DNA from: a virus
Reading direction: 5' to 3' (one strand)
Length of the DNA: 32,486 nt
Virus record (IMG/VR): IMGVR_UViG_3300042691_003508
Coordinates: 1 to 32,486 of that record
This document shows, piece by piece, positions 23,838 through 32,193 of this stretch. The notes beneath the pieces are model-generated. The model did no database searches, was not told the origin of the DNA, and saw only the letters and a list, made by a program, of their open reading frames with translations. A program made the translations under genes and the position numbers. Each line of letters starts with the position of its first letter. The stretch's first letter is position 1.

Positions 23838-24980
23838 TTATGCATCTGCAGCAGCATCGGCCCAGACGATTGCATCTTCTTCTTCCCATTGAATACCAAA
23901 ACGAACGAAGACGGTATACTCAATTGTATCCTTCTTTGCCTTGTATTCACGGTTTACAACGATGTCTCTCTGGAAGCCCCATACACGGTTCTGAGGGAAT
24001 GTCAAATCGACATATCCATCTGGATAGTAAGGAACTTCTTGTACGTCAATTCCGAGAACACGTGTTGTACGTGCTCCACCGAATGTCTGACCATTTCCAT
24101 CAAGGTATGCTTGACGGTTTGATGCAGTACCAGCAACTCTTGGACCCATTGCTTCAGCAATAGCATCTGCGAGTGTACCGTTATTCTTAACAATACCAGC
24201 GAATGTATCAGTACCAACATAGAACTTAAGATTGTTCTTAAGAGCACGATACTTACGTGGCAATGCAAGAATTAATTCCTGCATAACTTCTGGAGTCCAG
24301 GCATTATCAGCAACAGTAACAGCAGCCTCGTGTGAGTCGCCATTATCTTGATGCTTCTTGATAAAGCCCTTCATAATTGAAAGGAAGTTGCCTGTTGCGC
24401 CGTCACCGTTGATAGCGAGATCTTCGATATCATTAGCGAATGCATTTGTCATCAAGCGAACTAGATGATCTTCAAGCGCTGCCCCCTCAATATTATCTTC
24501 AAGTGCTTCAGCAGATACTTCCCAGTCTAGACGAATCTTCTTGGTTGTAAGTTCTACCTTGCTAAATGTTGCACCAGTGTTTGTGTAATCACCGACACCT
24601 TGAGCAGCAGCACGAATAACTCGTTCACCCACGTTAATCTTTTCGAGTTCCATGGTGTTTGCTCTCATTGTGACACGGCGACCATCTTGGGCGAGAACTG
24701 TAGCGTCCCAAACGTAATCAATGAAACGCTGTGCCTGTTCAGGGCGTAGGATACCGCTTCCAGCCTCACCCGAAGGATTTACTGCATTTGGTCCTGTTGT
24801 AAGACCTAGGTTAGCGTTTGGAATGTTACCAAGGACGCCACCATCAGTGTAATTACCAGGAACGTTAGAACCTGCTTCAGAACCTGATGCAAATGCACCC
24901 TGTGACTGATATAGACCTGGTGTTGTTCCACCGAGTTGTCCTGATTCTCCTGGTTGGTTTTTCTTTATTTCTTCCGACAT
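23838..24980 (-). CDS. Major capsid protein, HK97 fold
   Basis: Protein of 380 residues forming the head shell. The first 80 residues are Gly/Pro/Asn rich and flexible. The HK97 fold follows: FIDYVWDATVLAQDGRRVTMRANTMELEKI (E-loop region), VELTTKKIRLDWEVSAEALEDNIEGAALEDHLVRLMTNAFANDIEDLAINGDG (spine helix and P-domain), and a C-terminal sheet WGFQRDIVVNREYKAKKDTIEYTVFVRFGIQWEEEDAIVWAD. A GGAGGTG site precedes the ATG. It follows the protease-scaffold gene by 23 nt. Codons are visibly richer in G and C than in minor tail genes, as for the tube protein. Terminator downstream. Confidence 0.95.
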   Translation of the reverse strand: MSEEIKKNQPGESGQLGGTTPGLYQSQGAFASGSEAGSNVPGNYTDGGVLGNIPNANLGLTTGPNAVNPSGEAGSGILRPEQAQRFIDYVWDATVLAQDGRRVTMRANTMELEKINVGERVIRAAAQGVGDYTNTGATFSKVELTTKKIRLDWEVSAEALEDNIEGAALEDHLVRLMTNAFANDIEDLAINGDGATGNFLSIMKGFIKKHQDNGDSHEAAVTVADNAWTPEVMQELILALPRKYRALKNNLKFYVGTDTFAGIVKNNGTLADAIAEAMGPRVAGTASNRQAYLDGNGQTFGGARTTRVLGIDVQEVPYYPDGYVDLTFPQNRVWGFQRDIVVNREYKAKKDTIEYTVFVRFGIQWEEEDAIVWADAAADA

Positions 24981-25003: not shown

Positions 25004-25576
25004 TTATCTAAATAAGTCGGCTGTTTTGAGGAAACGTCCGCCCCATAAGGATTTTTCCATCATCTCTGATGGTTGTTCCTGAACGATCTCGCCTAGATCG
25101 CCAGACTTTCGGAAAGCAGTGTCTGCTTCTACTGCGTCTACTCTCTTTCCAAACTCGTTAAAGCGTTCATTTGTTGCAGCAATGTCTTTGGCGACTGCTT
25201 CTAATGAACTTCTTACTGCATCTGTGTCTACCTTATTAGACTTAAGTACTTCTACTTCTGCCTGCAAAGACTTTACAGTTTCAACTAAATCGCTAAAGGC
25301 TGATGTAATTGTATTCTTGATTTCTGCAACTGCTTCAACAATTGCTTCATCTGATTTAGATACTTCTGTAGCAACTTCTGCTGCTGGCGCTTCAACTGTT
25401 TCTTCAGCCTTTTCGACTACTTCTTCAGTCTGTGCAACTTCTGTAACTGGAGTCTCTTCAGACTTTTCAGTAACTTCTGCAACAGGAGTTTCAACTACGG
25501 CATCTGCCTCTGGAGCGATTTCTTCTGACTTAGCAATTTCTGTTACTTCTTCAGTAACCTTCTTTGTTTTTGCCAT
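25004..25576 (-). CDS. Nested scaffold protein from internal in-frame start (predicted)
   Basis: An ATG at codon 251 of the protease-scaffold gene (MAKTKKVTEEV) lies 8 nt after a perfect AGGAGG (25585-25590). It would yield a 190-residue product consisting only of the acidic repeat and coiled-coil part. Lambda makes its scaffold Nu3 from such an internal start within the C protease gene, so the arrangement has a precedent. The Shine-Dalgarno is far better than the one at the main start, which fits the need for many scaffold and few protease copies. Confidence 0.7.
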   Translation of the reverse strand: MAKTKKVTEEVTEIAKSEEIAPEADAVVETPVAEVTEKSEETPVTEVAQTEEVVEKAEETVEAPAAEVATEVSKSDEAIVEAVAEIKNTITSAFSDLVETVKSLQAEVEVLKSNKVDTDAVRSSLEAVAKDIAATNERFNEFGKRVDAVEADTAFRKSGDLGEIVQEQPSEMMEKSLWGGRFLKTADLFR

Positions 25577-26326
25577 AGGATTTTCCTCCTCTGAAATCTT
25601 AGCATCAATGCCTTTAGCACTATCTACTAAGAATTTGACTATATCCATTTTTTCGTTGTCTTCTTTTTCAACGAAACCTATATTCTTCATTGTGTTGCCA
25701 GTAACTGGACTTGTTACTGCTTCTTGATCTGATATCATTACAAGACCAGATTCTTCATCATAAAAAACATTTTCAAGTGCAACATCTGCACCCTTAATAA
25801 CATCAACACCATCTACCTTTTCAACATGCATGATGTTCGCAAATTGATTTGCTGGAGAATCAACAAGTGATAGTTCAACAAGATCATAATCTTTAATAAT
25901 TCTAATTGTAGAGTCTGACTTCTCATCGTATCCATCATCCCACTTATTCATTCTACCGCCAATCGAAAATCCAGAAAGTGTGCCGTCGAGAACTTTTTCC
26001 CAAGTGTCTTGTGCACCTTTTGAAATGTATGCAGACACAAAAACTCCAGAATAAAACTTTTTAGATTCTGGATCAAAATATTTATCTTCTTTAAATGAAA
26101 CCATCTTGCCTACTGCTGATGGCTGATGCATTTCACGAATGTTTCCACGGAAAGCAGAAAAGGCTTTCATAGAAGCCTCTGAAGTAACTATATCTCCTTG
26201 CTTATCAATATTATCAAGGGATGCAAAACCTGAGACGATACGTCTCTCTTTATCAACCTTCGCAAAAGGAAGGGAAAGTCTTACTGAGTCGCCATCGGTG
26301 TTCCAATGGGCTTTGGATATAGTCAT
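25004..26326 (-). CDS. Prohead protease fused to scaffold
   Basis: Protein of 440 residues. Residues 1-175 are a prohead protease of the XkdF/S78-like type: VSGFASLDNIDKQGDIV, a candidate catalytic His at 67 (IREMHQPS), a candidate Ser at 121 or 118 in LSGFSIGG, and the signature DLVELSLVDSPAN. After a linker comes an acidic Glu/Val/Ala-rich repeat region (PVAEV, PVTEV, PAAEV units, about 265-340) and a coiled coil (about 340-410), typical of scaffold. The start at 26326 is chosen over an upstream TTG because the predicted promoter -10 lies between them. A second start at codon 251 would make the scaffold alone. Cleaves head proteins and shapes the shell during assembly. Confidence 0.88.
   Translation of the reverse strand: MTISKAHWNTDGDSVRLSLPFAKVDKERRIVSGFASLDNIDKQGDIVTSEASMKAFSAFRGNIREMHQPSAVGKMVSFKEDKYFDPESKKFYSGVFVSAYISKGAQDTWEKVLDGTLSGFSIGGRMNKWDDGYDEKSDSTIRIIKDYDLVELSLVDSPANQFANIMHVEKVDGVDVIKGADVALENVFYDEESGLVMISDQEAVTSPVTGNTMKNIGFVEKEDNEKMDIVKFLVDSAKGIDAKISEEENPMAKTKKVTEEVTEIAKSEEIAPEADAVVETPVAEVTEKSEETPVTEVAQTEEVVEKAEETVEAPAAEVATEVSKSDEAIVEAVAEIKNTITSAFSDLVETVKSLQAEVEVLKSNKVDTDAVRSSLEAVAKDIAATNERFNEFGKRVDAVEADTAFRKSGDLGEIVQEQPSEMMEKSLWGGRFLKTADLFR
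25585..25590 (-). promoter_or_regulatory. Internal Shine-Dalgarno for nested scaffold
   Basis: AGGAGG on the minus strand, 8 nt before the internal ATG at 25576. It sits in the linker between the protease domain and the acidic repeats, exactly where a separate scaffold would begin. Confidence 0.75.
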
Positions 26327-26336
26327 ACTAGAATAT

Positions 26337-26366
26337 ATTATAGAGCCTTTTTTACACAAATGTTAA
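26337..26366 (-). promoter_or_regulatory. Promoter of protease-capsid operon (TTAACA-18-TATAAT)
   Basis: Minus-strand -35-like TTAACA (26366-26361), 18-nt spacer and perfect -10 TATAAT (26342-26337). The expected start, about 7 nt downstream, lies some 4 nt before the ATG at 26326, so the mRNA would be almost leaderless; no Shine-Dalgarno is present. Two DnaA boxes sit directly upstream of the -35. Confidence 0.6.
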
Positions 26367-26371
26367 TAAAT

Positions 26372-26392
26372 TGTGAATAACATTGTGGATAA
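26372..26392 (-). promoter_or_regulatory. Two DnaA boxes between portal and protease genes
   Basis: On the minus strand TTATCCACA (26392-26384) and TTATTCACA (26380-26372) lie in the same orientation, 3 nt apart. Both fit the bacterial DnaA-box consensus TTATNCACA exactly. They begin directly after the portal stop codon and are followed by very AT-rich DNA and the predicted promoter. A TGTG-containing half match lies near 26351-26359. Confidence 0.7.
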
Positions 26393-27994
26393 CTATTGAG
26401 AAGATCTACCTTCGCCTTTTGGATTTCTACCACTTATTGTGGCAGGACCATCAGACTGGTTGTTCGTTCTTTCTCCATCCCTTGCTCTATTTGCTGTATC
26501 GTTAGCAGTGTCTTGTGGCTTAGGCTGGAAAGGCTCATCCCCTCCTTCCCTTTGTGGAAGTCCAAGCACAGTTCTTGCTTCGTTTGGAAGCATGACCTGG
26601 GTCTTGATATATCTTTCCAAAATCTGAGATTGTGCAATTTCGTCTGTTAATGTTAATTCTTTAAACTTTAAAACCAGAACATCTGTTTTTTCTTTAATAA
26701 TCTTATTTAATATTTTTTCTAACTCTCTTTGTGCAGGTCTGGCTACCTGTTCCTTAAATGTTCTATCTTGAGACATTGCTGCTGCTATACCACCAGCATC
26801 TTCTCCACCTATCTTAGACAAAGGGACTTGATGTGCAATTAAAATATCGTCACGATTTTGTTTGCGATATTTTTCAAATGAACCCTCTTGAACACCGTTT
26901 TCGATAGGCTCCATCTTAAACTCAACCTTGTTTGTGTCACTGTCTCCAGGAAGTGGAATATACAGCGTTCTGTGAGACTGCCCCTTAAGGTTTGTTTGTA
27001 AGAATCTAAACATCTTGTCTTCTGCATCTGCAGAAAGACGTGCTCCCTTTAGAGTTACAACATAACGAGGAACAGCCTTATTGCTAAAGTAGTCGATGTT
27101 ATATTGTGATGCTAACTGGTCTCCATGAAGTGAGTTAATAGCAGACATAATATCTGGTACTCCATAAAATGTGTTTAATGGAGAATATTGCTTGAAGTGA
27201 ATAATTTCATTTGGTCGTGGATCTGATGTAATTGGATTAGGATTGCTTGCTCCAAAGTTTCTAAAATAAACAACTTTTTGTCCTATAATTTGAACATATC
27301 CATCACGAACTCTTCTTGTACGCATTGTTGTTGCTGGTATATGTCCAATATATCCAATCTCTCCACGGGTAGTTCTACCAACTTCTAAGTACCCATTTCC
27401 AATTGCCTGAACATCTGTATACACTTTCATCATTGTAGTTGTAAAAGAATCATCATCATTTAATGATTCAAGCCATTCGTGCATTTCAATTTTTGCTCTT
27501 TCAATTCTATTCCGTGCTCTTGACACCTGCTCTTTATCTTTGTTTGATTCAAGACGAAGCATTGTGCTTGGGGAAACTTCAAAATCATAACCAAGTCCAA
27601 CGATGTTTTCTACCTTTGCATCAATTGCAGCATGGTTAGCAAATGATGTATCGTAATAATTTGCAAGTTCATAAACATTCCATGGTGGTGTGATTACATC
27701 AAATAATCCGTAAGCATTTCTATATACAGTTCCAGGATTAATCTCTTTTGACTTTGCACCGTCAATACCGCTTTGCTCCGCTCTAGCGCTATCAAGATAT
27801 CCCTGCATATTTTCTGGTGCTGCTGCTTTTTCTACTAATCTTCCAGTTCTTCTTTTAAAATTATTGTCAAGACCAGAGTATGATTTTATCTCGGACCATG
27901 ACTTATTAAAAGGATCTTCTACCTTAAACTGATCCATAATATTGAAAGTGTCATCTATCTTTGCACCGATAATAAATTCTTGTTCTTCTGACAT
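26393..27994 (-). CDS. Portal protein
   Basis: Protein of 533 residues, the dodecameric DNA-entry ring at the head vertex. Recognisable portal features are ITPPWNVYELANYYDTSFANHAAIDAKVENIVGLGYDF near residues 100-140, then YTDVQAIGNGYLEVGRT, NEIIHFKQYSPLNTFYGVPDIMSAI, and IDYFSNKAVPRYVVTLKG. The segment SKIGGEDAGGIAAAMSQDRTFKEQVARPAQRELEKILNKI follows. This is the PBSX/SPP1-like portal pattern, and the length is usual. The C-terminus is a disordered, polar tail. Its ATG overlaps the preceding stop (TAATG) with GGAG upstream. No terminase gene lies beside it within the window. Confidence 0.94.
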   Translation of the reverse strand: MSEEQEFIIGAKIDDTFNIMDQFKVEDPFNKSWSEIKSYSGLDNNFKRRTGRLVEKAAAPENMQGYLDSARAEQSGIDGAKSKEINPGTVYRNAYGLFDVITPPWNVYELANYYDTSFANHAAIDAKVENIVGLGYDFEVSPSTMLRLESNKDKEQVSRARNRIERAKIEMHEWLESLNDDDSFTTTMMKVYTDVQAIGNGYLEVGRTTRGEIGYIGHIPATTMRTRRVRDGYVQIIGQKVVYFRNFGASNPNPITSDPRPNEIIHFKQYSPLNTFYGVPDIMSAINSLHGDQLASQYNIDYFSNKAVPRYVVTLKGARLSADAEDKMFRFLQTNLKGQSHRTLYIPLPGDSDTNKVEFKMEPIENGVQEGSFEKYRKQNRDDILIAHQVPLSKIGGEDAGGIAAAMSQDRTFKEQVARPAQRELEKILNKIIKEKTDVLVLKFKELTLTDEIAQSQILERYIKTQVMLPNEARTVLGLPQREGGDEPFQPKPQDTANDTANRARDGERTNNQSDGPATISGRNPKGEGRSSQ

Positions 27995-28416: not shown

Positions 28417-31400
28417 TTATATGGCTGTTGATGTGTTAGATACCCATGATGCATTAGAGTATACGGAATATTCGTAATCCTTAATACTAAAAATCATGTC
28501 TGACTCTGCAATAATCTTATCTCTTCCAGTATAACTGTTATAGATATTTGATGGATTTGCTCCGTAATAACTTGTTGATGATAATACTAAAACACCATTC
28601 CAGGATATTACAGGACTATTCCAAAATGACCAGTGCAATTCAGAAGTTCTTATACCACGTACAAGTACCCATGGCCTTAGTGTCACATCCTGAACTTCTT
28701 GAAGATTGGTTGCCTGATAGTAAGAAATCACATTATATATTAGCGGACCATTTAAATTTAATGAACCAATATTTCCACTGCAATCAAAAAGATTAGAGAA
28801 AGAAACTCCTATAAATGCCCACTGCTTAGTGTTTAATATTGGGTTTTTAACAAGTCTTCCATTTAAATAAAATACAACGTTATTATCTATTTTTCTTGTT
28901 TTTGCATTAATCGCATAGATAATTCCTCTTTTACCGTCTGACTGAATTGCCTTTGTATAAAATTTGATATGAGAGTCATCTGACTTAATTTCAAATACCT
29001 GAGTTGGAGAATATGGAAATGAGTCTTTGTTGTACATAACTGCAGACTGGAAAGACATAAGTTGATAGTTACTATCTTTATTGCTATTTATTGGAATTTG
29101 AAGACCTCTATTTAATACAGGATCATAAATGTCTTTTGGTTCTATTCCAGATTTTTGTGTTAAATATAAATATGGAGAACTAGACTTATAAATACTAAAT
29201 GGGTTTCTTGCTTTATAATTATAATAGAATCCATTCTTTACATATGGATAAAGTTTTGCCTCGCCTCTTGTTCCTATTGCATTTGCTCTATATGAATTAA
29301 ATGCTTGAGATGCTAATTGCATACTTTTAAGGCTAACTATTCCATTCATTGTTCCATAATTTATAAACTCTAAACTTATTTTTATTCCAAGTTTTCTTGG
29401 GTCAATATCTTTTGGTGGATAAATAATCATGTTATCTACAACTTCATATTTTGTAGTTACCCAATTATCCTGTGGGTCTACTACACCTGATTGTGATGCT
29501 GGTTCTATATTTTCAAAATAAGAATCTTGAAGAGTCATTCCATTTCTTATATATTCAAAGTTAATATATGACTTTAAATATGAATCATCTGTATTATATC
29601 TATAAGAAAATTGTGCATTTTTGGCTAAATCAGAATAATCGTTATACCCTGTAAATAAATGATTATCCAACGAATCGTATGACCTTTGTATTGGGTTTGA
29701 ATATTTTTCTTTTAACTCTTTATATGTCCAAGATCCTTCTGTTTCTTCTTTAATAAATTTTGTTGGTGCTGGATAATTAATATTAAACTGTAATAAATCC
29801 AGATCGTAATATTCGTCACCCTTTGCATCTAATACTCTTTCTGCAAAATATGATAATGGAATGTAGTCTTTCCAATAAGACTTTGTTGCTATGTCTAATA
29901 TATATGAGCCGAAAGAATATCTTGCATGTAACATATAACTAGCAACATGATTAAGAAGTCTTGACGCTACAAATGAAGTGGCTAAACCGCCATCTAAATA
30001 AAACTCCCACCACGAATCATTAACCTCAACAAAATCTCCGTTTGCATTGTAGTATCCTCCTACTGCATATGGGTTTGACCCGCCATCTGTATCAACTAAC
30101 TCTGTTTGAATAAACCAATCAAATACATTTTCATAGTCTATTGGCAACCCTCTGGTATTAAAAAAATCAACTATTTCATTATAATTTCTATCAGAACAAA
30201 AGCCAATCTTATACATGTTTCCATGGTATGTGTTTTCTAAATTTTTACTTCCCCCAACATAAAACTTTAATGATTTTTTATCATTAAAAAATGATACTAA
30301 ATCTCCCCCATAATAATTTGTAAAAGTTTCTATGTCTAATCCAATAGTAAACTCATCATTAATGGTGTGCCCAGATGAAACATATAATATCTGCTCTACT
30401 GGTAACCCTGTGTTTGGATCTAAACGTTTTGGAGTTATAAATTTATATTGAATTACATCATCAACAATTTCAATTATAAACCTTTCATCAGAAACATCTG
30501 ATTGAATATAAAAAATAGTTTCTGGTGTTGAGACTGCTCTTCTTGATTTAAATACTCCATAAAAGCATCTTATGGGTTCTGTCATAAAGTCTAAACTCTC
30601 AAAAGATAAAAATCCCTCATTTACTTCATCATTAGTTTTTTTAAAGGTCCAGAAAAGTTCTTCGTCTTCTTGCTGCAAATTTATATTATCAATATAAAAC
30701 TCCGAAACAGTTTTATTTGTTAAATATAATTCTGGATAGTTATATTTTGGAGTAGATATCTTGTTATCTTCAATAATTACATTTTCTCTGGCTCCCTGGT
30801 CCCACTTGCCAAGATCTGGGTATGAATAATTTTTTGAATAGTCTGCAAACTCATAATCTATTAATGCAGTGGTTCCTCCAAATGCAGTATTGATATTATC
30901 TGGAATATCTACTGCCTGTCCGTATACAAATCTACGCTTTGCTAAAATTTCTGCAACACCATAAGAATATATTGCAACACCATCTATTTCTATTGGAGAT
31001 ACATCCTCATATGACCAAAAGCCTATCCAGTCATTGCTCTTCCCATCAGTTGTTGGGTTTGAAAAAATAATATCTTCAGAGTTAAAGTTTACGCTACCAA
31101 CATTTTGTCCGTTTACAAGCAATGATGCTGTATTCTTAGAAAGCCTAATATGAATTAGCATTGGTCTTCCCCACTCACCGACAAAATGAGAAATTATAAA
31201 AGAGTTAATCTTGAGTTTTAAAAATGGGCCATTGACATATAAGCCATCTGATGAATTAATTGGTCCGCATATTTTTTTATCAACATTAGTATCGGATACT
31301 ATTCTCGCCCAAAATTCAAAAGTATAAGAAGAATATTTATTTGACTCATTAAACATTCCTAGTCCAGGGAAAATAATTGATGGTAATGTGTTATGTGGAT

Positions 31401-32193
31401 ATAAAGTTAATGAGTTAGCAGATCCAAAAACTAATGGAACTGAGTTAGTTCTGGCTAATAACCTATTGTCTGAAATCAAGCAATATGCTTTTTGATTATT
31501 AATTCCATACGAAGATATTTCATAACCTTCATTACATGATAAGTTTATGTCGTCAGGAAAGTTTTCTGCAATAATTCCAAGTGAGGTTGAGTTATATTCC
31601 TCAGACCACTGTCCAAAAGAAAGCCCATTAATTAATAAATCATAGTCGTTAGGATTTGTACTTCCATTTGAAAATCTATATCCAATTACTAAAGAAACAT
31701 CTGATGTCTCATGTGGAATTTCAAAACTTTCTGAAACAAAAAACCACTTTTTAACAAATGGTGTTTCAAATTCTTTAATTACCGAAACTGTCTCTCCATT
31801 AGCAGAATCTATGTACGTATAACCTAAAAATGTACTAGATATATATTCTCCTTCAGAATAAAGCCATGCACCTATGCTAAAGGTTTTTAAATCTAGGTCA
31901 AGATCATTAAAATTAAAAAAATCTGGACTTTTTATTAGTACTTTTGTTGTAAGTTGATTTTCAGATAATTGAATACCATTAACCCTATATGTAAAAGAAT
32001 TTTTAAAAGGTTCTCCTATAACAGACTCATCTTTTTCAATTACTACCTCTTCAATACTTGGTGTCCAACTTGTTAAGTCTCTTTGTTCTTCGCTAATTAA
32101 AGAAAGGTAGCCGATACTCTCATCGAAAGACCAAGTTAAGGTTGGATGCTCTGAAAATATTTTTTCTGTATATACATTTGATGAGGTAGCCAT
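28417..32193 (-). CDS. Large LamG-domain tail/adsorption protein
   Basis: Protein of 1258 residues rich in Asn, Tyr and Ser, nearly all beta. Three or four concanavalin/LamG-like jelly rolls can be picked out: about 98-184 (FSIGAWLYSEG), 288-411 (YTFEFWARI, then LLVNGQNVGSVNFN and IEIDGVAIYS), 541-668 (FYGVFKSRRAVSTPETIFYIQ, LKFYVGG, MYKIGF) and 1064-1164 (VVFYLNGRLVKN, WAFIGVSFSN). Such domains in phages bind sugars or act as fibre modules. Lying between a reductase and the portal operon, it is away from the main tail-tip cluster. It has no Shine-Dalgarno; an extended -10 ends 8 nt before the ATG. No hydrolase active site was identified. A virion role is likely; the exact site on the particle is unknown. 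Confidence 0.8.
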   Translation of the reverse strand: MATSSNVYTEKIFSEHPTLTWSFDESIGYLSLISEEQRDLTSWTPSIEEVVIEKDESVIGEPFKNSFTYRVNGIQLSENQLTTKVLIKSPDFFNFNDLDLDLKTFSIGAWLYSEGEYISSTFLGYTYIDSANGETVSVIKEFETPFVKKWFFVSESFEIPHETSDVSLVIGYRFSNGSTNPNDYDLLINGLSFGQWSEEYNSTSLGIIAENFPDDINLSCNEGYEISSYGINNQKAYCLISDNRLLARTNSVPLVFGSANSLTLYPHNTLPSIIFPGLGMFNESNKYSSYTFEFWARIVSDTNVDKKICGPINSSDGLYVNGPFLKLKINSFIISHFVGEWGRPMLIHIRLSKNTASLLVNGQNVGSVNFNSEDIIFSNPTTDGKSNDWIGFWSYEDVSPIEIDGVAIYSYGVAEILAKRRFVYGQAVDIPDNINTAFGGTTALIDYEFADYSKNYSYPDLGKWDQGARENVIIEDNKISTPKYNYPELYLTNKTVSEFYIDNINLQQEDEELFWTFKKTNDEVNEGFLSFESLDFMTEPIRCFYGVFKSRRAVSTPETIFYIQSDVSDERFIIEIVDDVIQYKFITPKRLDPNTGLPVEQILYVSSGHTINDEFTIGLDIETFTNYYGGDLVSFFNDKKSLKFYVGGSKNLENTYHGNMYKIGFCSDRNYNEIVDFFNTRGLPIDYENVFDWFIQTELVDTDGGSNPYAVGGYYNANGDFVEVNDSWWEFYLDGGLATSFVASRLLNHVASYMLHARYSFGSYILDIATKSYWKDYIPLSYFAERVLDAKGDEYYDLDLLQFNINYPAPTKFIKEETEGSWTYKELKEKYSNPIQRSYDSLDNHLFTGYNDYSDLAKNAQFSYRYNTDDSYLKSYINFEYIRNGMTLQDSYFENIEPASQSGVVDPQDNWVTTKYEVVDNMIIYPPKDIDPRKLGIKISLEFINYGTMNGIVSLKSMQLASQAFNSYRANAIGTRGEAKLYPYVKNGFYYNYKARNPFSIYKSSSPYLYLTQKSGIEPKDIYDPVLNRGLQIPINSNKDSNYQLMSFQSAVMYNKDSFPYSPTQVFEIKSDDSHIKFYTKAIQSDGKRGIIYAINAKTRKIDNNVVFYLNGRLVKNPILNTKQWAFIGVSFSNLFDCSGNIGSLNLNGPLIYNVISYYQATNLQEVQDVTLRPWVLVRGIRTSELHWSFWNSPVISWNGVLVLSSTSYYGANPSNIYNSYTGRDKIIAESDMIFSIKDYEYSVYSNASWVSNTSTAI

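Follow-up and report, generated by a model that had tools for sequence, protein, structure and literature searches.

DnaA is an established activator and repressor of transcription (PMC8203912). The Escherichia coli nrdAB promoter has three DnaA sites, one of which is specific for DnaA-ATP while the other two bind regardless of nucleotide. It is activated when DnaA is low, or in the ADP form, on the strong boxes and repressed when DnaA-ATP is high (PMC8203912). The same source, citing Szalewska-Palasz et al. (1998), adds that DnaA stimulates transcription at ori-lambda. Here, we describe a phage locus that can be compared with both systems. As at nrdAB, three DnaA sites, here putative, stand at one promoter, two of them strong and one weak. 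Unlike nrdAB, a host gene of nucleotide supply whose regulation has been measured, the phage promoter serves a head operon whose regulation we infer, and its third site overlaps the -35 hexamer. Likewise, a phage may be using host DnaA as a transcription factor, as at ori-lambda, but in lambda this serves origin activation and the expression of replication proteins, whereas ours is an actinophage head promoter.

The timing of phage late genes is usually ascribed to phage-encoded regulators. Our literature search, in a collection with few subscription journals, returned no paper linking DnaA boxes to a phage late promoter. From sequence comparisons, we consider it reasonably likely that the pair of boxes described below is a binding site for the DnaA of an actinobacterial host and forms part of a sigma70-type promoter that starts a protease-capsid-tail unit.

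The locus lies in a stretch of 32,486 nt (IMG/VR record IMGVR_UViG_3300042691_003508), hereafter the window, which is a fragment of a phage. Its relatives have genomes of about 110 to 120 kb; more distant kin are Streptomyces phages of the Stanwilliamsviridae. Two of the latter, Jada and LukeCage, have homologous portal, protease, and capsid genes in the same order, with portal proteins 45 to 48% identical. Unlike in the window, a gene for a membrane or hypothetical protein occupies the place of the portal-protease gap, and no box pair occurs in the stretches read. An element shared with these Streptomyces phage cousins was rejected because the gap does not exist there. The features of the locus, in order of transcription, are as follows.

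26393..27994, minus strand: portal protein gene (phrog_12), upstream of the promoter
26384..26392, minus strand: DnaA box 1, TTATCCACA, directly 3' of the portal stop codon, centred at about -59 from the predicted transcription start
26372..26380, minus strand: DnaA box 2, TTATTCACA, centred at about -47 from the predicted transcription start
26361..26369, minus strand: third, degenerate copy, TTATTAACA, which overlaps the -35 and is a putative weak DnaA site
26361..26366, minus strand: -35 hexamer TTAACA, contained in the third copy
26337..26342, minus strand: -10 hexamer TATAAT, 18 nt from the -35 and a few nt before the protease ATG
25004..26326, minus strand: head maturation protease gene (phrog_9427, E 4.9e-114), first gene downstream of the promoter
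23838..24980, minus strand: major capsid protein gene (phrog_1623, phrog_10; PF05065)

Both boxes are on the minus strand, which is the coding strand of the structural genes. Read along it, the portal TAG (26395-26393) is followed by TTATCCACA, ATG, TTATTCACA, AT, TTATTAACA, 18 nt, TATAAT, ATATTCTAGT, and the protease ATG (26326). A sequence-only reading of the window had drawn attention to two exact 9-mers in the same direction, 3 nt apart, in the 66-nt gap between portal and protease genes (26327-26392), and all of these positions were confirmed. Its claim that such an arrangement is unlikely by chance holds for the pairing but not for the boxes taken singly. Specifically, the whole window contains two matches to TTATNCACA, both of them the boxes in this gap, compared with a mean of 2.48 in shuffles of the window. 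Because their number is at the chance level, single boxes are uninformative and it is the pairing that counts: a same-strand pair with a spacer of 0 to 10 nt appeared in none of 1,500 order-2 simulated windows.

The same reading had noted adjoining AT-rich DNA and a promoter directly downstream of the boxes. The gap is indeed AT-rich, but this richness is largely owed to the promoter inside it. That promoter was found, a sigma70-type TTAACA-18-TATAAT that scores 11/12, the best among 45 promoter-like sites between 22000 and 32486, the number of such sites being at the chance level (41.8 expected). Transcription is predicted to start 7 to 8 nt past the -10, which would give a near-leaderless transcript with a leader of 3 to 4 nt. 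Portal protein is needed in about a dozen copies and capsid protein in hundreds, and it would make sense to have a promoter under separate control at the border between low-copy and high-copy genes. Farther upstream of the portal gene, the window encodes a 1,258-aa protein (28417-32193) for which searches of PHROGs and Pfam gave no match.

Upstream elements among relatives

The protease has relatives on 594 stretches in IMG/VR. We kept the best 80 of 594 and found further ones via the promoter sequence; the tree comprises 76 distinct relatives, with rows selected by -10 and ATG. Labeled by simple motifs, under which a few assignments could shift, the upstream element consists of boxes in 47 of these relatives, of a palindrome (ATCTCA-N5-TGAGAT) in 23, and of neither in 6. 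Scanning relatives for boxes in the same gap thus gave a divided answer, since most keep them but about one-third with the same gene order do not. The box label switches at least five times on the protease tree. Furthermore, the proteases of L032, which has boxes, and L043, which has the palindrome, are near-identical. These patterns indicate that the core promoter stays fixed and that the element upstream of it is swapped in modular fashion. The core itself, TATAATATAT(A/T)CTAGT-ATG, is kept in relatives with and without boxes alike, and also among protease-selected loci that were chosen without the -10 and ATG criterion. Given the several swaps and the third of relatives that have the palindrome or neither, the boxes are a modular regulatory element and not an obligatory origin. 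The palindrome (relatives L028-L038, L152-L172, and L065) covers both the portal stop codon and the -35, and TCTCA-N5-TGAGA-like sites are present elsewhere in the genomes of these relatives.

Where boxes are present, they vary in a restricted way. Counted across 46 distinct box-bearing relatives with a motif that fixes positions 2, 4, 7, 8, and 9, they differ at positions 1, 3, and 5, mainly at 3 and 5, which DnaA tolerates. Box 1 is mostly TTWTCCACA, with TTATCCACA and TTTTCCACA as main variants; box 2 is TTATNCACA, free at position 5 (T 30, C 9, A 6, G 1) and nearly invariant at the others. The spacer between the boxes is 2 to 3 nt long and varied in sequence, and 16 to 18 nt separate the third copy, or -35, from the -10, so that phase is preserved. 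In a motif-free alignment, position 5 of box 2 had an entropy of 1.5 bits and the neighboring spacer columns had 1.3 to 1.9 bits, compared with 0.15 to 0.75 bits in the other columns of box 2. Judged from these alignments, a variable position 5 and variable spacers between conserved cores are the pattern of the DnaA consensus. The boxes match TTWTNCACA adjoining the -35 and are conserved relative to the promoter, a conservation that is not universal among relatives.

The third copy is more ambiguous. Box-less relatives keep a TTAACA or TGAGA hexamer in its place, so TTATTAACA can be explained by the -35 alone, and we count the sufficiency of TTAACA against a role for DnaA at this position. In L002 and L023, the third copy is replaced by TTTTCCACA, in register, and TTATTAACA is also a member of DnaA-box arrays on unrelated phage contigs.

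Paired boxes elsewhere in phage and bacterial genomes

Tandem pairs are not confined to the head promoter. Each of 15 large records has at least one, with no match to a reversed control pattern, and nine near-complete relatives together hold 19 compared with 0.17 expected, again with zero in reversed-pattern controls. Individual genomes contain 6 to 18 matches to TTATNCACA and up to three tandem pairs, which recur at three places: site A, the head promoter; site B, the promoter of an early operon; and site C, a repeat-rich noncoding stretch. The site B pair precedes the first promoter of an early-type operon, which consists of small genes, by about 70 to 110 nt. It is found at the following positions and their equivalents in other relatives.

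L084:3975-3995: site B pair
L083:14268-14288: site B pair
L086:6385-6405: site B pair

One relative, G007, has the palindrome and no boxes at site A yet keeps the pair at site B. Within the early-type operons, promoters built as GGCGTGTC...TTGATTTTGTCAG-N7-TGATAGGAT recur. DnaA domain IV (PF08299) was found in none of 11 phage records (G000 itself being a fragment) but in the control genomes, and a phage-encoded DnaA was rejected on this basis. Similarly, a domain search found no sigma70 region 4 in the phages, and a phage sigma factor with region 4 was likewise rejected.

On the bacterial side, we compared 30 genomes grouped around a small freshwater actinobacterium, of which 17 have pairs of TTATCCACA. 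These genomes, of 1 to 1.7 Mb, were found via the MraZ motif and are Microbacteriaceae-like and freshwater, and they do not represent a proven host; genes were named by reading N-termini, and dnaA also by PF08299. The pairs have spacers of 1 to 3 nt, and those read lie mostly in the dnaA-dnaN (oriC) or rplI-dnaB intervals. With the same 9-mers in direct repeat at such spacers, the phage pair is thus built like the DnaA arrays of these bacteria. Unlike the phage pair, the bacterial arrays hold more boxes, and the exact box-box-TTATTAACA array was absent from all 297 actinobacterial genomes searched. In the rplI-dnaB interval of L342, L340, and L348, dnaB, the replicative helicase gene, is preceded by four to six DnaA boxes, some of them paired in tandem, which suggests that DnaA controls dnaB or that a further origin element is located there. 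A search of the 297 genomes for the phage promoter, as a trace of host or prophage, gave no match with a 79-nt query that was inexact in its first bases and had no positive control.

Control by host DnaA and its alternatives

The sequence-only reading had offered two accounts of the boxes: DnaA gating of the capsid operon or a phage origin opened by DnaA. Our comparisons favor the first, which would be consistent with the position of the promoter, the consensus-like conservation of the boxes, their recurrence at early promoters, and the matching pairs at oriC and dnaB of the bacteria. Two good boxes are directly repeated just 5' of the -35, spaced by about one helical turn, and a weak third copy covers the -35; this geometry would fit a two-level switch as at nrdAB. 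DnaA on the two strong boxes may help RNA polymerase, while excess DnaA-ATP would spread to the weak site and shut the promoter. Phage replication would then multiply the high-affinity pairs at sites A, B, and C and titrate DnaA, and the promoter might open fully as phage DNA accumulates. We infer binding by host DnaA, use of the promoter, the direction of regulation, and a link to replication; a change of sign as DnaA-ATP falls is the reading that would best join the anatomy to late timing. Counted against the proposal are 29 of 76 distinct promoters (23 palindromic, 6 neither) that evidently work without recognizable boxes. If DnaA control holds, head production in this freshwater phage family may be tuned by the free DnaA left in the infected cell. 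A head promoter on host DnaA sites would also make the link between late transcription and replication testable in abundant, little-studied freshwater actinophages, where promoters with and without boxes on the same core form a natural comparison set.

Alternatively, the boxes could serve as operator for a late activator or repressor that the phage itself encodes and that prefers TTWTNCACA, with the palindrome serving another regulator. Many phages run their late genes through their own proteins, and the swapping of boxes and palindrome at one place would be expected if regulator and operator were exchanged together. Yet at each position the boxes vary as the DnaA consensus permits; oriC and dnaB of the bacteria carry the same pairs; and pairs also occur on early-type promoters, before a late activator would act. 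We regard this alternative as unlikely, though a phage protein reading TTWTNCACA is possible after one domain search.

It is more improbable still that the pairs act mainly as a sponge, drawing DnaA from the host origin to sites A, B, and C with placement at promoters secondary. Replication would multiply the pairs and single boxes carried by each genome, as a sponge would need, but their preserved phase to the -35 and -10 would be unnecessary for it.

An origin opened by host DnaA at the boxes is very improbable, and we rejected it for the portal-protease gap on skew, distribution among relatives, and anatomy. Two perfect boxes, an AT-rich gap, and a phage-encoded DnaB_C helicase would suit such an origin. 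However, GC skew is monotonic through the window, where a turn at the boxes had been envisaged, and in three near-complete relatives it likewise does not turn at the boxes, its extremes lying away from site A. The cluster comprises two boxes and a promoter in tight geometry, with no further boxes, iterons, or separate unwinding element, and the repeated switching of boxes on the tree, with their absence from about one-third of relatives, also speaks against an origin. The suggestion that the phage helicase is loaded here fared no better, its gene being about 26 kb away, a distance counted against an origin. That gene is a truncated DnaB-type helicase gene (29-556) at the contig edge. Site C of the same genomes, where repeats and boxes lie in noncoding DNA, is the stronger candidate for an origin. 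Finally, although the window has no more single boxes than chance would give and a third of relatives lack them, chance or a functionless inherited relic is scarcely credible, contradicted as it is by the absence of pairs from simulations, their excess over expectation in near-complete relatives, and conserved cores between variable spacers.

Site C and its MraZ-type operator

Site C also contains a triple MraZ-type operator, AAAGTGGAGTRAAGTGGAGGATAGTGG, in noncoding DNA.

L084:13970-14051, minus strand: triple operator
L082:5677-5760, plus strand: triple operator
L083:4274-4360, plus strand: triple operator

Exact or with few mismatches, AAAGTGGAGTRAAGTGGAGGATAGTGG is present in all nine near-complete genomes and in L091, and in many cases a DnaA pair precedes it by about 35 nt. 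Its 20-base core occurs in 56 stretches among 84,980 bacterial genomes, nearly all directly 5' of mraZ. The MraZ operator is the switch of the division and cell-wall operon. No mraZ gene was found in the phages, and a literature search on MraZ and phages returned nothing. One possible, though doubtful, extension is that these phages use host cell-cycle regulators as clocks, with DnaA pairs at early and head promoters and the MraZ operator with its DnaA pair at site C timing early and late transcription as the factors are titrated by multiplying phage DNA.

The injection stop signal of phage T5 has been described with repeats and DnaA boxes (PMC13250531), and we treat this parallel, together with a placement of site C near the genome end, as a lead and not a result. 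A gene in the operon adjoining site C has a homologue near the end of Streptomyces phage genomes, at two places per record, and the terminal 700 nt of phage Navo contain TTCGTAA repeats like those of site C; site C is thus probably near the genome end.
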